Shown: piece by piece, positions 1,923-37,246 of the stretch
How positions within the stretch are numbered: the stretch's first letter is position 1
Layout: each line of letters opens with the position of its first letter
DNA from: Alphaproteobacteria bacterium
GTDB taxonomy: Bacteria > Pseudomonadota > Alphaproteobacteria > Micavibrionales > Micavibrionaceae
Length of the DNA stretch: 64,000 nt
Direction: 5' to 3'
Assembly (NCBI GenBank): GCA_009995045.1
Contig: JAACQG010000006.1
Coordinates: 164,448-228,447 of the forward strand
Notes under the pieces: model-generated
What the model was told of the DNA's origin: nothing
The model's database searches: none
What the model saw: only the letters and a program-made list of their open reading frames with translations
Program-made: the position numbers and the translations under genes

Positions 1923-4568
1923 ATGGCATATAAAGATGTAAATCAAATGGATCGCGCCGATGGCGAGGCACAAACCGAAACCATCCAAACGCTGCACATC
2001 AATGGAGATACGCTTGACCTGCCCCATGATAGCTATGTGAGAGACGCGGATATATCACGCGATGGCGCAGATTTAGTCCTAAACAGCGATCATGGCACGA
2101 TCGTCGTCGAAAATTACTTCTCAGGCATAGAATCCCCTATCCTCATTTCACCCAGCGGCGCATCCCTCAGCCCGCAATTGGTAAACTCTTTCGCAACAAG
2201 CGGCAATGAATACGCACAAAGCACATCCATGAACGATGCAAGCCCCGTCGGCGCAGTACAAGAGATCAGCGGAAACGCAACAATCACACGCGGTGACGGC
2301 ACAACAGAAGATTTATCGCTAGGATCACCAGTCTACCAAGGCGATATCATAGAAACAAACGCAGGCGCAGCCGTTAACGTCGCCTTTACCGACGAATCCA
2401 ATTTCGCCGTCTCCGAAGACACACGTCTTGCAATCGACGAATATGTGTTCGACCCATCATCCGAAGGCAGTGTTCAAAATTTCTCAGTGCTAAAAGGCGT
2501 CTTTGTTTACACGTCCGGCCTCATTGGACGCGATGACCCCGATGATGTATCAATCGACACACCAGTTGGATCAATCGGTATTCGCGGCACAATCATCGCA
2601 GGTGACGTCAACGAGGGTGAAATCACAGTCGTAGAAGGCGCAATCGTCCTTCGTGACCTAAGCGGCGGGGAAATGACCCTCGCTAGCCAGTTCGAAACAG
2701 GACGCTTCACGAGCACAAATGGCATCCAAAACCTTGGACAAAAATCAGCAACTGACGTCGTAGAAAAATTCTCTATCGTGTCGAATGTAGCGCCGAACAT
2801 GTTCTCATCCATTAACGATGCCGCAACCGAAAACGCGCCAGCAGCAGCAGACACACAAACAAACACAGAACAACCAACACAGCAAACCGCCCCAGAAGCC
2901 AACAAAGAAACCAACGAAGAAACTCAATTCGATGCTGACGGCGCAACTGACCAAGACGGCGACAACAAAGTTGACGGAACAGTTGAAGACGCTGGCGGAT
3001 CCGATGGCGCCGCCCTAGATGGAGCAGACGCAAACACGGCGCAAGAAACAGCACAAGACACGAACCCAACAGCCGTACAAATTGCACAGGCTCTAGGCAT
3101 GTCAAACGGTGATAACGCTGTGAATATGACTGGTAATAAAGGCATGGGTGGCATGGCAAATATGGCCATGGCAACAAAACATGCCGTAATGAACGGTAAA
3201 GCCATGATGGAAAACATCATTGAGGCAAAATCCCACATGGATATTGTGGATCAGATAAAAGGGAAAGCTGGCTATCTGGAAAATTCTGACAGCGCCATTA
3301 ATCCGAACCTCTTAGATAGAATTATAGCAAAATCCGGCGCATCCCCGACAAGTGATAAAGATCAAAACTACGTTAAAGAATATTTCCAAGCCGGTGAATT
3401 AACGCAGTGGAGCTACGATTTTGGTGATGATTTTCAGGGGGAAACTTTTTTAAGGCTCTCTCAAAACACAATTGATACCTTAAATCGTTATGACGCTTAT
3501 GGAGGAACAGGAAACGGTGGACTTGATGATTTATTGCATCATTGGTCATTTGGCGGCGCCAGAACAGGTGTAGCATCAGGGGACGCCCAATTAATTTTAA
3601 ATTTTGACGAGGATTTTTCCACCGCCCCATTAGGCGAGGACATTACACCAGGAAGTTTCGGAAGTTTTACAATTGAAATCGAAGCCGTGAACGCAAATGG
3701 ATCAGTCATATCAAGCTATAACTTTGATATGTTTAATAATTCTATTGGTGCCTCACCATCCAGTGCATGGGGAACTCCAGGCACTGATATTTCTGGAACG
3801 GACGAAATATTTAACAGCCCCGTTGGAATAGACTCCTCCTTACTGACGATTGGCGCAAACAGCACAACAGATAATATAACGGTCTTCATGGGCGATGGAG
3901 TTGATCGCATTGAGATTGGAAGCGGAAACCCCGTAACTAACAGTACAATTAACCTTGGTAGCGGCCAAAATACAGCCACCCTAAATGGCGGCGGCACAAG
4001 CCTAGGCAACACAATCGTTGGTGGAAACAACAGAGATACCTTTACCATCAACAATGCCGACAACAAAATGTATGGGATGGATGGAGACGACAAATTTGCA
4101 ATCAACCAGACAAGCTTCTCTACAATAACAAACAACACAGTAATCGACGGCGGTCAAAGTGGCTTTAATGCCTATAAAACATTAAACCCCCTATCGAACA
4201 CTAACCAAGGCATCGGCGACACTCTGCTTCTTAATTCAGCAGGCAGCTTTAATTTCTCTGCGATTACCAACGGCCAAATTAAAAATATCGAACGCATCGA
4301 ATTGGGAGCAGGCAACCAAACCATCAAACTCACTTTGGATAGTGTTATGGAGATGACGGATGGCAGAAACACGCTCCTCATCAGTGGTGATAACAATGAT
4401 ACATTCGATACATCCGCGTTGGATGGCCAAGGATTTAATTTAGAATACACCAATAAAGCAATAGATGAAGGCAGCGGCACGCAAAACTTCAAGGTTTACA
4501 GCAACGCCGAAGGCGTAACACTCATTATCGACAGCGATATTAATGGCGCGGCATCATTAGTAGCCTAA
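1923..4568 (+). CDS. Large FecR-domain protein with degenerate RTX-like repeats, probably type I secreted
   Basis: An 881-residue acidic protein with no N-terminal signal peptide. Residues about 20-75 resemble the prefix found in BapA-like adhesins (an LxLxxxDxxI...DGTIVVENYF pattern). Residues about 115-245 form a FecR domain (GDIIETNAGAAVNVAFTD; SIGIRGT). Residues about 300-385 are a Gln/Thr/Asp/Ala-rich low-complexity linker. The last 250 residues are rich in Gly, Asn and Asp with calcium-repeat-like pieces (MYGMDGDDKF, GDNNDTFD), and the end is short and hydrophobic. This layout fits export by a type I secretion system as a surface or biofilm protein. No secretion genes are nearby, so that role is inference. 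It could also be an unexported FecR scaffold. Confidence 0.6.
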   Translation: MAYKDVNQMDRADGEAQTETIQTLHINGDTLDLPHDSYVRDADISRDGADLVLNSDHGTIVVENYFSGIESPILISPSGASLSPQLVNSFATSGNEYAQSTSMNDASPVGAVQEISGNATITRGDGTTEDLSLGSPVYQGDIIETNAGAAVNVAFTDESNFAVSEDTRLAIDEYVFDPSSEGSVQNFSVLKGVFVYTSGLIGRDDPDDVSIDTPVGSIGIRGTIIAGDVNEGEITVVEGAIVLRDLSGGEMTLASQFETGRFTSTNGIQNLGQKSATDVVEKFSIVSNVAPNMFSSINDAATENAPAAADTQTNTEQPTQQTAPEANKETNEETQFDADGATDQDGDNKVDGTVEDAGGSDGAALDGADANTAQETAQDTNPTAVQIAQALGMSNGDNAVNMTGNKGMGGMANMAMATKHAVMNGKAMMENIIEAKSHMDIVDQIKGKAGYLENSDSAINPNLLDRIIAKSGASPTSDKDQNYVKEYFQAGELTQWSYDFGDDFQGETFLRLSQNTIDTLNRYDAYGGTGNGGLDDLLHHWSFGGARTGVASGDAQLILNFDEDFSTAPLGEDITPGSFGSFTIEIEAVNANGSVISSYNFDMFNNSIGASPSSAWGTPGTDISGTDEIFNSPVGIDSSLLTIGANSTTDNITVFMGDGVDRIEIGSGNPVTNSTINLGSGQNTATLNGGGTSLGNTIVGGNNRDTFTINNADNKMYGMDGDDKFAINQTSFSTITNNTVIDGGQSGFNAYKTLNPLSNTNQGIGDTLLLNSAGSFNFSAITNGQIKNIERIELGAGNQTIKLTLDSVMEMTDGRNTLLISGDNNDTFDTSALDGQGFNLEYTNKAIDEGSGTQNFKVYSNAEGVTLIIDSDINGAASLVA

Positions 4569-12653: not shown

Positions 12654-13625
12654 TTATAATAATTTCAATAGATTAACATAATCATCCGGCAAACTCTGCT
12701 CAAAATGCATAGTCTCTTCCGTGATCGGATGGATAAAAGAAATCGCCCCCGCATGAAGCGCTTGGCGACCAAAGCTTAAGACCTGCTCTTGCGCGTCATC
12801 ATCCATGCCATGCTTTTTCATCGCCGCTTTTAATGCTGTTAATTGCGGCCCATACATAGGATCACCCACCAAAGGATTTTTGATCGCCGCCATATGCACG
12901 CGGATTTGATGCGTTCTACCGCTCTCTAACTTGCACTCAACCAGAGAAAAATAGCCGCCGAAATCTTTTTCAACCATATAATATGTCTTCGCCGTCTTGG
13001 CTTGGCGTACATTCACGGCCACCTTAAGGCGGTTACGCGGATCACGTCCCATGGGCAAATCAACATGCCCCTTTATCGGCATAGGCACACCGAGCAATAA
13101 CGCCTTATAAACACGGCTCAAACTACGATCCTCAAGCTGCGCTGATAAGCCTTTATGCGCCTTATCATGCTTGGCAACGACCATAAGCCCTGTCGTATCC
13201 TTATCTAGCCGATGCACAATCCCCGGCCGCATAACGCCGCCGATGCCCGAAAGCTCGTCACCACAATGATGAAGCAGCGCATTGACCAGCGTCCCTGAAT
13301 GATTTCCCGCGCCCGGATGCACAACCAATCCCGCTTGCTTATTGATCACCAACAAATCAGCATCTTCATACACGATATCAAGCGCGATATCCTCTGGCTC
13401 CGGCTCCGCGGAGACCGCGTCAGGAACAGTCAGAACAAGCTTATCCCCCTCGCTCAACTTCCACGATGCCTTGGTAAAAACCTGTCCGTTTAATGTCACC
13501 GCGCCGCTTTCAATCAAAGCCTGTATCCGTGAACGCGAATAATCGCTTTGTATCTGCGCAAGTGTTTTATCCAGACGATCCCCTGAATCAAAATCGTCAA
13601 TATCAAATTCTAAAATAATACTCAT
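12654..13625 (-). CDS. rluD: Ribosomal large-subunit pseudouridine synthase RluD
   Basis: A 323-residue cytoplasmic enzyme that turns uridines in helix 69 of 23S rRNA into pseudouridine. An S4-like RNA-binding domain is at about 15-75 and the catalytic core has HRLDKDTTG with the catalytic aspartate D141. The later motifs LESGRTHQIRVH and VGDPMYG are intact. Its start codon overlaps the stop of the gene upstream as ATGA, so it is translationally coupled to an exported protein of unrelated type. RluD is favoured over RluC because of the full-length S4 domain and overall likeness. Confidence 0.9.
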   Translation of the reverse strand: MSIILEFDIDDFDSGDRLDKTLAQIQSDYSRSRIQALIESGAVTLNGQVFTKASWKLSEGDKLVLTVPDAVSAEPEPEDIALDIVYEDADLLVINKQAGLVVHPGAGNHSGTLVNALLHHCGDELSGIGGVMRPGIVHRLDKDTTGLMVVAKHDKAHKGLSAQLEDRSLSRVYKALLLGVPMPIKGHVDLPMGRDPRNRLKVAVNVRQAKTAKTYYMVEKDFGGYFSLVECKLESGRTHQIRVHMAAIKNPLVGDPMYGPQLTALKAAMKKHGMDDDAQEQVLSFGRQALHAGAISFIHPITEETMHFEQSLPDDYVNLLKLL

Positions 13626-32009: not shown

Positions 32010-32558
32010 TTAAATGCGCTCAACAATAGCGCTCTTTCGCCCACGGGAGAATGCAATCTCACGCATCGGAACCAGACCAACAGTAAATTTACCGATTGAA
32101 AAACCTAAAAACAGCGGATCATATTCATATTCAATACTCACAACAATCACACCATTATTCGCCTCAGCCAACGACGCAACAGCCGCAAGCACATCCGGAT
32201 TGGGTGTCATGTTACGTGTCTCACGCCATTCAATATATGCATCCGCATCATCATCAAAACCGATGCTAACAATATCAACACCATAAACCGAAGTATCAAA
32301 TGGCTGCAGCGCAAGCTCACCCGCCATTATCGCTTCATTGATCATGCCATCACTCATTTGTGAATCACGCGCGATAAGATCCGCAGTCACCTGGGATGCA
32401 CGAATAGCTTTTTGCCCCGCTAAAATAGCACTACCCATGTCATATGTACCAACCAACAAGACGGCCAAAAGCGGAAACACAAAGGCTGATTCAATTGCCG
32501 CAACACCATCACGGCACCGCGCCCATTTGATTAACAACGATCTCAGAAAATAAAACAT
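32010..32558 (-). CDS. TadE-like minor pilin
   Basis: A 182-residue TadE-family pseudopilin. The start ATG at 32558 gives a short N-terminus (MFYFLRSLLIKWARCRDG) before the conserved GVAAIESAFVFPLLAVLL membrane segment with the E of the TadE motif. Longer in-frame starts lie within the gene upstream. It is a single base after that gene (ending 32560) and 37 bases before the TadG gene. TadE proteins are needed for Tad pilus assembly. Confidence 0.87.
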   Translation of the reverse strand: MFYFLRSLLIKWARCRDGVAAIESAFVFPLLAVLLVGTYDMGSAILAGQKAIRASQVTADLIARDSQMSDGMINEAIMAGELALQPFDTSVYGVDIVSIGFDDDADAYIEWRETRNMTPNPDVLAAVASLAEANNGVIVVSIEYEYDPLFLGFSIGKFTVGLVPMREIAFSRGRKSAIVERI

Positions 32559-32559
32559 A

Positions 32560-33093
32560 TCAAACCGCCCCATCAAAATCATAGGGCTCTGATTGCAAAA
32601 CAATCGTCGACATAAAGAGTTTAGAACCACTTCCGCCCGTCAACAAACTACCCACAATAGGAGTCATAATGTGATAACGATACGCAGTACGAACAAGCAC
32701 ACGGTCACTTGAGCCGCCCGGCGCCACACCGCGCGAAACCATATTACCGTCTTCATCAAATTGCGCCGCCGCGCTGGCAAAATCACCAAAACTATCAAGC
32801 CGCTGCACCTCAATTTGAATATCATTACAATCTAAAAAGGCCATTTTATAGCTGCAAAGAGCATCACGAAACGCCTCCTCAGGTGCTGATGCGGATTGCT
32901 GAAGCTGCCCCGTTCTAATCAAGCGCGCCGCTGAATTGGTTGCCCCCTCCAGCAAGCTCGCCGATGTAAACATCAACGACATTTCAATAATACCAAGAGT
33001 AAGCATCATATATGGCGCAAGCAATAAGCTAAACTCAACGGCGGTAACACCATCGTCTTTGCGCGCCCATTTTCTATATAATTTACCCAACAT
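32560..33093 (-). CDS. TadE-like minor pilin
   Basis: A 177-residue TadE-family protein. I chose the ATG at 33093, which gives MLGKLYRKWARKDDG before the motif GVTAVEFSLLLAPYMMLTLG; an in-frame TTG at 33126 is possible but less likely. A mainly extended periplasmic domain follows with two cysteines in LCSYKMAFLDC. It is first in the TadE-TadE-TadG operon. Confidence 0.86.
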   Translation of the reverse strand: MLGKLYRKWARKDDGVTAVEFSLLLAPYMMLTLGIIEMSLMFTSASLLEGATNSAARLIRTGQLQQSASAPEEAFRDALCSYKMAFLDCNDIQIEVQRLDSFGDFASAAAQFDEDGNMVSRGVAPGGSSDRVLVRTAYRYHIMTPIVGSLLTGGSGSKLFMSTIVLQSEPYDFDGAV

Positions 33094-33123
33094 TTGTATA
33101 AAATCACTTTCAAATTTCAGGCA

Positions 33124-33147
33124 CAAAAAAAGCGGCTATCATCCGCT
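33124..33147 (-). terminator. Terminator of the pseudokinase operon
   Basis: AGCGG pairs with CCGCT around a 7-base loop, followed on the minus strand by a run of T. It ends the transcript of the membrane protein at 33225 and sets it apart from the TadE genes. Confidence 0.8.
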
Positions 33148-33224
33148 CCAACTTTCTGCACCCACAGAACCTAACTTCTCTTATTGTTTCACAAGACCAG
33201 TAAAGAAAGCCTTAATAGGCATAA

Positions 33225-33719
33225 TTACGACTTGTCCTCTTTTTCAATCGCAAACCCATATTGATCAACCGCAATCTCTCTCGTGACCTCTTTACCCCAT
33301 CTATCAACAAGTTCTTTTTGACGTTTCTTGATTGCCTTCACACGCGCCTTGCCTCGCTGCAACAACAAACTCGCGATAATGCCCGTCATAGCCCAATCAA
33401 TCAGATACCCAATCGCAGCCGCCGCATACATAACAACAATCGCCTTTGGATTTGTTACAATCTCAATAGCCTGCTCAAAATTATGCCCCTTCGTCCATAG
33501 ATCTAACAAAAAAGGAACCGCGCCCGACAAATTCATAGCCCCCACTGTAATTGCCTTTGATTTGCGCTTAGAACGATCAACAAAAGCCGCAGCCAATGTT
33601 GGCAACATCGCGATAGAAAGCATAAAAGTCGTTGGCAAAAAGACAATCGCCATCAACAAACCAGCCGCACTTAATATTTGTTTTTTAAAACCACCGCTTT
33701 TAGCCTTTTTCTTCGCCAT
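33225..33719 (-). CDS. Small membrane protein of unknown function
   Basis: A 164-residue protein with a very basic start (MAKKKAKSGGFKK), about three hydrophobic segments (roughly 15-47, 56-75 and 93-120) and a charged cytoplasmic tail (RGKARVKAIKKRQKELVDR). I do not recognise the family. It begins 12 bases after the pseudokinase gene and is followed by its own terminator, so the two form a closed unit. A membrane partner for the pseudokinase is a fair guess but not shown. Confidence 0.65.
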   Translation of the reverse strand: MAKKKAKSGGFKKQILSAAGLLMAIVFLPTTFMLSIAMLPTLAAAFVDRSKRKSKAITVGAMNLSGAVPFLLDLWTKGHNFEQAIEIVTNPKAIVVMYAAAAIGYLIDWAMTGIIASLLLQRGKARVKAIKKRQKELVDRWGKEVTREIAVDQYGFAIEKEDKS

Positions 33720-33731
33720 AAAAAATCTTCC

Positions 33732-35825
33732 TTAAAATATACTATTGCCACTCATGAACATATAAGTCGTCACAAGAATAAACAGCGCAGCAAGACCACC
33801 CGAAATAAGCGCAGCAAAGTCCCGGCCAGTTCCACGGCCAAAACTGCCCTCATCTTCCAATTGCCTTGATAAACGATCTTCCTCCAGCTTTAGCTGAGCA
33901 TATTCAACCATAGCAGCCTTATACCCACGCATATCCCTTTCGTGCACATCAGGGCTATCTAGAAGATTAGCCATCTTCACCAAATCACCCAGCTTCACAT
34001 ATTTATCAATATTCTCTTTCAGCTTGTCTCTGATATCCTGATCATGAAAACGCTTATAAACAGTCGGAAGTCTTTTCTGAAAAGCCTTTGCTATATGTGG
34101 AAAAGGATCAAGCCCAGACCGCTTTTGGATGATCGCAAAAACTTTTAAATTCGCAAGAAGGTTTTTATGATCATCGGGGGAATTGATATCATACAAATAC
34201 GCGTCAATGATTTTGGAATCTTTCATCGATAAAAATGCTGCAACATGCCTATCAATAAACAAAGCAGGACTATCACCCTTTTCACAAACAGATTCAAACG
34301 CAGACATCATTTCTTCGGGTGTTGACACATAGTAGTCTTTTAACTTCAAACTGAGGCATGGCACGTCCGGAGATAAGGTGTATAGGCAACGCTCAATACC
34401 AACACCAATCTTATTCTGCCGTAAAAAACTGCGACAAAAATCAAATTTTGAAATCCATCCCGAAACAGCAACATTCGGATTTTCACTGGTTGTAACCCAA
34501 TTCATTGCAACAGATTGCGTAAACATATCTGCAAATAATTTGACATCACGATTATTTACTATTGTGTCATACAGCGCATTCCCGACCCCGTCACCTGACA
34601 TGCACAACCCTCGGAAACGAAGTGGCGCCATTGCATCCAAAAGCGAAGAGACATTGGAAACAAGTCTGTCTTCATAGCCTGGTCCGCGCCCTCTTTGAAT
34701 AGACGATTGATATGCCTCTTTTAAACGATCAACAGCAACACTATCCTCCAAAGAGCGCGTTAACCATTGCTCCAAAACGCCATCTTCAACGAGCTTAACC
34801 GTTTCAGATGGAGCCTTATCAAGAGCCATAGCAAGCAATTGAGGATAAACAAATTTTTCACCATTAAACAAAATCGGACGCGCCGATTTTGCTCGGCTTG
34901 ATGACTGCTTTGGGCTAAGCCTGCGCCCATCAAGCCACACTAAAATTTCATCTACCGTCCATCTCTGTGATGGTTCATCATGCAACAAACCACGCAGCAA
35001 CTCTAAGATAGAGCCCTTAAAACGGTCCTTACCGGTCACGGCGGCATAACTACCGACCTTAACCTTCTCACGAATAATTTCCTCATCGCTCTTCCCCTCA
35101 AGAGGATCAGAAGAGCGAAGAATAACAGCCAACGAAACACCAAACGCATAAATATCATCAGCCAACATACCGCTTCCACGACTAATCGCATCCGCTTGCG
35201 CACGCTCTATCGGCTCATATATAGATGGTTGCGTATACGAAGCTTGTGCAGACAAACAATCCCCTAACACAAACTCACTTCCCTTGCCGCTTTGAAACAT
35301 ATTACCGGGGCGGATTGCGCCGTGAACAAAATCCTTATCACGAAAATCCTGCAAAACATTAACCATGGGCTTAACGATGCTCTCCATGACTAAATCTTGC
35401 TTCCAACCCATCGCCTGTTCTTTATCGCGCTCCAAAAAACGCTCACCAATCGAGTATTTATACACAATCACATACCGCTCTTGCTTAGCTGGCGGCCAAT
35501 AAACCTTACCGTACGAAACCAAGGGTAAAAGAGCTGGATTAATAATTGAAGCATACCTCTCCGCCGCATTTCGGCGTGGTACAAGATGGCGCTCACACAC
35601 AATTGCAATTAAATTATCGGAGCTTCGCCCCCTAGATACAGCCTTATAGGCTTTATTTTCCAAGGAGTCATAAGATGGTAAAGGCTTGCTGGGGAATATT
35701 TCGATATTACCATCAAATTTAACAACCGTTACTGGCGTTTGCACCTTTGGCTTTGTCGAAGAAACATCCTTCTTGCCTTCACCCTCAGCAGGCTTTTTAT
35801 CACTCTTAGTTTTATCGTCCGCCAT
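33732..35825 (-). CDS. Tail-anchored pseudokinase-like protein
   Basis: A 697-residue protein. Residues 30-310 show the outline of a protein kinase: FVHGAIRPGNMF (168-177) replaces the HRDLKxxN loop, GDC (188-190) replaces DFG, and ADDIYAFGV (222-230) and the QRWT end (about 280) match the C lobe. The catalytic aspartate, the DFG aspartate and a clear glycine loop are absent, so it should not phosphorylate. A long helical region with a coiled stretch (QLKLEEDRLSRQLEDE) follows, and one membrane segment lies at about 670-692, leaving the body in the cytoplasm. It is the first gene of a two-gene unit between the Tad and purA genes. Kinase-fold assignment is moderate; lack of catalysis is clear from the residues. 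Confidence 0.68.
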   Translation of the reverse strand: MADDKTKSDKKPAEGEGKKDVSSTKPKVQTPVTVVKFDGNIEIFPSKPLPSYDSLENKAYKAVSRGRSSDNLIAIVCERHLVPRRNAAERYASIINPALLPLVSYGKVYWPPAKQERYVIVYKYSIGERFLERDKEQAMGWKQDLVMESIVKPMVNVLQDFRDKDFVHGAIRPGNMFQSGKGSEFVLGDCLSAQASYTQPSIYEPIERAQADAISRGSGMLADDIYAFGVSLAVILRSSDPLEGKSDEEIIREKVKVGSYAAVTGKDRFKGSILELLRGLLHDEPSQRWTVDEILVWLDGRRLSPKQSSSRAKSARPILFNGEKFVYPQLLAMALDKAPSETVKLVEDGVLEQWLTRSLEDSVAVDRLKEAYQSSIQRGRGPGYEDRLVSNVSSLLDAMAPLRFRGLCMSGDGVGNALYDTIVNNRDVKLFADMFTQSVAMNWVTTSENPNVAVSGWISKFDFCRSFLRQNKIGVGIERCLYTLSPDVPCLSLKLKDYYVSTPEEMMSAFESVCEKGDSPALFIDRHVAAFLSMKDSKIIDAYLYDINSPDDHKNLLANLKVFAIIQKRSGLDPFPHIAKAFQKRLPTVYKRFHDQDIRDKLKENIDKYVKLGDLVKMANLLDSPDVHERDMRGYKAAMVEYAQLKLEEDRLSRQLEDEGSFGRGTGRDFAALISGGLAALFILVTTYMFMSGNSIF

Positions 35826-35870: not shown

Positions 35871-35902
35871 AAAGGCTCCCTGAAGAATATCAAGGAACCT
35901 TT
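35871..35902 (-). terminator. Terminator after purA
   Basis: AAAGGCTCCCTG pairs with CAAGGAACCTTT with two mismatches and an 8-base loop, followed on the minus strand by TTTTCTCTTTCT. It separates purA from the pseudokinase gene. Confidence 0.7.

Positions 35903-35950: not shown

Positions 35951-37246
<1,296 letters not shown>

Follow-up and report, generated by a model that had tools for sequence, protein, structure and literature searches.

A two-gene unit conserved in the Alphaproteobacteria encodes a protein that matches protein kinases by profile, has lost catalytic residues and ends in a hydrophobic segment, paired with a small membrane protein. The larger product (PK) is probably a catalytically dead, membrane-anchored pseudokinase that serves as a scaffold or switch, working in complex with the smaller one (TM). 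The genes lie within a 64-kb stretch of DNA, referred to here as the window, which belongs to a 1.89-Mb genome (Table 1). The first-pass annotation had described a two-gene unit with a terminator on each side, and both open reading frames were found, along with a terminator-like hairpin on either side. The region as a whole contains 6 terminator-like sites, not clearly above the shuffle mean of 4.4 (sd 2.2), and so the case for terminators depends on the position and stability of these hairpins. A Tad locus lies 3' of the pair (gene names assigned by eye; TadE confirmed by search). Elsewhere in the window, an 881-residue open reading frame at 1923-4568 contains a FecR-like stretch, recognized by eye, and adjoins a glycerol-kinase-like gene. 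A chance origin of the PK and TM reading frames is excluded, because the frames, the motif losses and the pairing are all conserved across the class (see below).

Table 1. Features of the PK-TM locus, in window coordinates
Feature	Coordinates	Strand	Basis
PK, 697-residue predicted pseudokinase	33732..35825	-	ORF and profile alignment
TM, 164-residue membrane protein	33225..33719	-	ORF and hydrophobicity
12-base gap from PK stop codon to TM start codon	33720..33731	-	sequence
HGAIRPGN codons, PK residues 168-175, HRD-loop equivalent	35301..35324	-	profile alignment to solved kinases
VLGDC codons, PK residues 186-190, DFG equivalent	35256..35270	-	profile alignment to solved kinases
Terminator-like hairpin between purA and PK	35871..35902	-	13 pairs, -19 kcal/mol, z -5.85, 0/200 shuffles as stable
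Terminator-like hairpin 3' of TM	33129..33149	-	weaker: z -2.48, 1/200 shuffles as stable
purA, upstream neighbour of PK	35951..37243	-	
Two TadE-like genes directly 3' of TM	32010..33126	-	TadE confirmed by match

The kinase outline that was noticed at first sight appears to be genuine, and profile comparisons support the view that PK is related by ancestry to the Ser/Thr protein kinases. The kinase-like domain spans approximately residues 38-310 and is followed by a conserved C-terminal half (approximately residues 310-660). When a profile built from 85 family members was compared with solved kinases, the best match was to MK2 (E 3.4e-13, profile positions 60-288 of 685), with HgaIrptN of the family aligned over HRDVKPEN and LGec over LTDF. 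The PK of the window alone scores 22.5 bits (E 8.7e-5) against Pfam Pkinase, short of the gathering score of 31.7; a Pkinase match at E <= 0.01 is present in 35 of 50 aligned members from the window's order, and one of ten class members scanned exceeds the gathering score. Kinase-type families are the only Pfam matches at E 0.01 among 50 members, and no Pfam domain besides the kinase type was found in the window's PK. An Asp of helix F and an Arg of helix I hold the kinase fold, and PK apparently still has both, as Asp224 and Arg288 (99% of the 85 members at either position); together with Gly229 and Trp289, they form a set that is kept in at least 96%.

The catalytic residues have fared differently. 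According to the introduction of PMC12599244, a bacterial pseudokinase combines homology to kinases with the loss of at least one of three residues, and PK fits this general definition. Among 87 aligned family members, Lys occupies the beta-3 Lys position in a single protein (from locus L115) and Asp occupies the HRD-Asp position in a single, different protein (from locus L063). Position 189, the counterpart of the DFG Asp, is Glu in 49 members, Asp in 33, Gln in 3 and Pro in 2. The family thus falls short of an active Ser/Thr kinase: none of the 87 members has all three residues together, which argues strongly for the earlier suggestion that PK is not a kinase. The reported replacement of the HRD Asp (HGAIRPGN in the window) is therefore a property of nearly the whole family, but the reported replacement of DFG by GDC stands only in part: the Phe and Gly are lost, but the aspartate is kept as D189 in the window's PK, and an acid (Asp or Glu) is found there in 82 of the 87. 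The loss of the ATP-binding beta-3 Lys, in place of which the family mostly has Val, Ile or Leu after a conserved Ala, is an addition to the motif losses claimed before. His168 is kept in 83/87 members, followed by Gly or Arg in 82 and then mostly by Ala, Asn or Ser; position 170 across the family is mostly Ala, Asn, Ser, Gly, Cys or Arg. Asn175 is kept in 84/87. The sole HGD member, which carries the Asp at the HRD position (L063, 1486-3576), lacks the beta-3 Lys and has GEC at DFG; it also has the best Pkinase score among the ten class members scanned (E 2.1e-10, exceeding the gathering score).

Relatives with intact HRD and DFG motifs, which the first-pass annotation had named as evidence against its reading, occur outside the family only and have a different architecture; there are none among the 87 members. 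In a search of 299 genomes of the phylum, 186 match the PK profile at E 0.001; outside the class these matches are mostly limited to part of the kinase domain, the best (E 1.4e-27) covering the profile in part. The best matches found outside the class are three proteins from the same phylum (L173, L174 and L175), which align with profile positions 42-394, 22-456 and 70-441 (E 3.5e-32, 5e-30 and 1e-28 in a scripted search). As in PK, the similarity to the family profile continues beyond the kinase domain, to positions 394, 456 and 441, but the proteins differ in that the Lys, HRDIKPGN and DFG are all present and the C-terminal architecture is another one. In the tree they branch outside the PK family, the node of which has weak support (0.355).

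Judged by motif or domain, PK is outside three published pseudokinase families. The GLW pseudokinases carry GLW at the HRD site and poly-leucine at beta-3 (PMC12599244, section 9), whereas the PK family mostly has His, then Gly or Arg, then Ala, Asn or Ser at the first site, and Val, Ile or Leu after a conserved Ala at the second. The CP1 pseudokinases are described as having a linked COG3899 domain and no membrane segment (PMC12599244, section 10), and the DLHK pseudokinases as keeping the HRD aspartate, likewise with no membrane segment (part of PMC12599244); PK has kinase-type Pfam families only, has almost always lost the HRD Asp and carries a membrane segment (see below). In the same source, ActPs1 is assigned chiefly to actinobacteria, whereas DYD is reported from actinobacteria and firmicutes. 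Like PK, EssB/YukC of type VII secretion is a membrane pseudokinase; it has a scaffold role (PMC12599244) and is taken here only as a working model for PK. Unlike PK, it is a secretion component of Firmicutes with the motifs LDMR, Ytfvlapd and TRG, and homology is not claimed.

The best match of PK among NCBIfam models is the class IV lanthionine synthetase LanL (NF038150; residues 147-315, E 4.3e-7), but PK reaches 28.6 bits against a cut-off of 650 and has no other Pfam domain. Its best PADLOC matches are MkoA (PDLC03920; to residue 360, beyond the kinase-like domain, E 3.3e-9) and mad6 (PDLC04138), profiles of 1112 and 659 positions that are matched in part only. A role in defence was considered on this account and set aside: the matches cover the kinase-like part, and the PK-TM pair sits in a conserved chromosomal order. 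As a separate observation, open frames of 2380 and 1211 residues at loci L176 and L179 match PK over its kinase-like part and the beginning of the region that follows it; the L179 frame contains a helicase-like P-loop as well, recognized by eye, and both are perhaps related to MkoA.

The C-terminal half of PK is conserved in its own right. Four residues are invariant in all 87 members (Trp289, Gly476, Tyr482 and Cys490), of which the last three lie in this half, and Asp525 and His527 are nearly so (99% and 95% of 85 members). Because the invariant residues cluster here, the main activity of PK may sit outside the kinase-like part, and the C-terminal half may be the seat of the real activity. 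Internal repeats, suspected by eye in this half, were not borne out by a four-segment profile-profile comparison (best probability 3.8 out of 100, E 0.011). The membrane anchor proposed earlier for the C terminus corresponds to a hydrophobic segment at residues 674-695, which 83 of 85 family members show clearly, among them the window's PK.

The TM protein has a long hydrophobic stretch at residues 17-41, followed by a weak one near 63-66 and by one at 94-112 that is also weaker than the first. Its N terminus is strongly basic (5.8 Lys plus Arg per member within residues 1-14) and its C-terminal tail is charged; both ends probably lie in the cytoplasm. No Pfam family fits TM, the commonest matches reaching 2 of 77 members.

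The distribution of the two families argues that they belong together. Of the 58 genomes of the window's order, 56 have PK and 55 have TM. Among 385 genomes sampled from the class, 133 match the PK profile and 135 match that of TM: both proteins are present in 131, PK only in 2, TM only in 4 and neither in 248. With 131 genomes containing both against 6 containing one, the earlier proposal of a two-gene membrane module is well supported. The two PK-only matches are both weak (E 4.2e-4 and 6.8e-4), and of the four TM-only matches two are weak (E 3.8e-5 and 8.7e-4) and two are in incomplete genomes (84% and 75%). At 80 of 82 wide loci (39/40 in the order and 41/42 in the class), PK and TM lie next to each other in the same orientation; the 42 class loci comprise 40 hand-picked genomes with a PK match and two Azospirillum records, and the start codons of relatives were picked by script near the expected place. 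In a set of 72,556 plasmid records, PK also occurs on five replicons, all from Azospirillum, and on two of these it carries the label 'serine/threonine protein kinase'. Azospirillum sp. B510 and A. lipoferum 4B are among the carriers. The gene order in A. thermophilum is hisZ, purA, 'serine/threonine protein kinase', hypothetical protein, rpoH; A. ramasamyi has the PK-TM pair without purA.

Genomes with several copies provide a further view of the pairing. Excluding those with a fragmentary PK (G154, G179, G332, G362 and G399), 15 multi-copy genomes with unbroken genes could be compared. PK and TM are present in equal numbers, 2 or 3, in eight (G101, G185, G190, G235, G330, G333, G406 and G410); G190, G333 and G410 contain tandem PK-TM pairs, and in G185 the third TM and the third PK are on different contigs. 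The pairing is not absolute, because copy numbers are unequal in the other seven: G153, G192, G293 and G374 have two PK and one TM, G401 has one PK and two TM, and G071 and G204 have one PK and four TM. G190, a 2-Mb genome, has three pairs (L117, L165): a tandem of two and, on the same contig at a distance of about 1.1 Mb, a third. The three extra TM-family genes in each of G071 and G204 (L147-L152) have no PK match in the stretch examined. An association of these extra copies with a sensor kinase was rejected: L148 follows a hybrid histidine kinase gene, but L147 and L149-L152 do not, both as judged by eye.

PK and TM are also retained together when they are apart, as in G033, G088, G228, G276 and G360 (two of these five genomes are 63% and 69% complete); an apparent split in G208 reflects contig ends. 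In G360, which is 100% complete, the two genes are on different contigs (L153 and L154), and TM follows purD-, xseA- and SixA-like genes, named by eye. The two families have also diverged in parallel. Across 62 loci with PK, TM and purA (L060, L062, L063, L097 and L117 were excluded beforehand), the correlation between PK and TM in tree distance is 0.86, and the partial correlation given purA is 0.79. None of 2000 permutations gave so high a partial correlation, but permutation destroys the tree structure, and so the argument is the partial correlation itself and not the permutation count. Adjacency, joint duplication, retention when split and co-evolution together support a shared function of PK and TM that is not dependent on adjacency.

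These data suggest the following model. The PK head and the long second region would lie in the cytoplasm, with a single C-terminal segment reaching the inner membrane, and PK would form a physical complex with TM. Because the ATP lysine and the catalytic aspartate are gone, PK would most likely act as a binding scaffold or an allosteric switch, in the manner of EssB/YukC as summarized in PMC12599244. Its head would bind a partner protein; Asn175 and Asp/Glu189 might in addition hold a metal or nucleotide. TM would couple this binding to a process of the envelope. The scaffold reading is strained at one point, since the conservation of Asn175 and of the acid at 189 exceeds what a pure scaffold needs. 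That conservation, in the face of the lost Lys and HRD Asp, would fit a repurposed enzyme that binds a metal-nucleotide through these two residues and carries out another transfer reaction, as do SelO (AMPylation) and SidJ (glutamylation); such new activities of pseudokinases have precedent (PMC12599244, in part). However, both of those proteins keep the ATP-binding-motif lysine (PMC12599244, Table 1), which is absent from PK, and position 170 shows no clear, conserved substitute base; an enzyme of this kind is fairly unlikely. A bolder proposal joins the two halves of the protein: an ancient alphaproteobacterial signalling complex in which the dead kinase domain would be a ligand- or metal-dependent switch (Asn175 and Asp/Glu189) driving a second, possibly catalytic region (Gly476, Tyr482, Cys490, Asp525 and His527), with TM as the dedicated membrane subunit. 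This is distinctly unlikely as a whole. It is extremely improbable that TM is instead an insertase-like helper (similar to EMC3/TMCO1) that inserts the tail anchor of PK. The similarity of TM to EMC3_TMCO1 (PF01956) that prompts this idea is weak, with a best E of 3.5e-4; at E 0.05 it is confined to 2 of 77 members, the window's TM (E 0.019) scores 15.2 bits where the gathering score is 27.1, and a general helper would not be expected to track PK in copy number.

The chromosomal neighbours of the pair offer two other functions. A purine-nucleotide sensor tied functionally to purA has in its favour that purA is upstream of the pair at 28/42 class and 26/40 order loci, with hisZ nearby at 25 and 14, and that AMP or ATP could occupy the pocket of a pseudokinase. 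Nevertheless, purA and PK have a strong terminator-like hairpin between them in the window, 14/42 and 14/40 loci retain the pair although the stretch shows no purA match, and rpoH (24/42) and rluD (23/42) are near the pair at class loci about as often, which points to a stable chromosome order instead of a shared function; we regard the sensor as very improbable. The Tad locus of the window raised the possibility, already voiced in the first-pass annotation, that the pair is tied to the pilus, for example as an inner-membrane platform or regulator accessory to Tad in the window's order. A TadE match indeed lies within about 300 bases 3' of TM, on the same strand, in 25 of 53 TadE-positive genomes of the order (tables compared by eye): 23 of these, counting the window, belong to the window's family, and the other two, G038 and G050, to a different one; in G034 the match is 1.5 kb beyond TM. 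The loci of G038, G050 and G029 (L042, L047 and L145) lack purA in the stretch examined, so that Tad adjacency can exist without it. However, Tad homologues are near the pair at 24/40 order loci and 0/42 class loci outside the order, a search with the window's own Tad proteins (E 1e-5) that could miss divergent Tad genes there. Of the two neighbours proposed earlier for comparison in other alphaproteobacteria, purA recurs at the loci examined outside the order and Tad does not, and purA is the older neighbour of the pair. TadE is matched in 69 of 131 genomes with the pair against 97 of 254 without it, a mild association (odds ratio 1.8, p 0.009, phylogeny ignored) that leaves 62 of the 131 without a match. 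In the window's order, G005, G046 and G057 likewise carry the pair and have no TadE match. A Tad component should be linked to Tad genes wherever it is present, and the PK-TM pair is not, leaving the case for a tie to the pilus weak and an accessory role in the order quite improbable. A role in Tad could be a local use of the pair and is unlikely to be its common function. Insertion of the Tad locus between the pair and rluD was also considered and rejected, because the window's rluD-like gene (12654-13625) shares the strand of the pair, in contrast to the opposite strand at class loci, and rluD is in the stretch at only 1 of 40 order loci.

Membrane pseudokinases are a known kind of bacterial protein, but the PK family and its TM partner seem to be undescribed within the literature searched: no description of the pair was found in the open-licence literature, including the parts of PMC12599244 and PMC5430801 consulted. 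Because relatives with an intact kinase are known, the route from kinase to pseudokinase is traceable. The pair is present in about a third of the 385 alphaproteobacterial genomes sampled, and should PK indeed be a pseudokinase, with TM as its obligate partner in the membrane, labels such as 'serine/threonine protein kinase' mislead. If the model is true, the class would hold a widespread membrane-bound module, and a class-wide membrane pseudokinase with a dedicated partner would take its place beside EssB/YukC.
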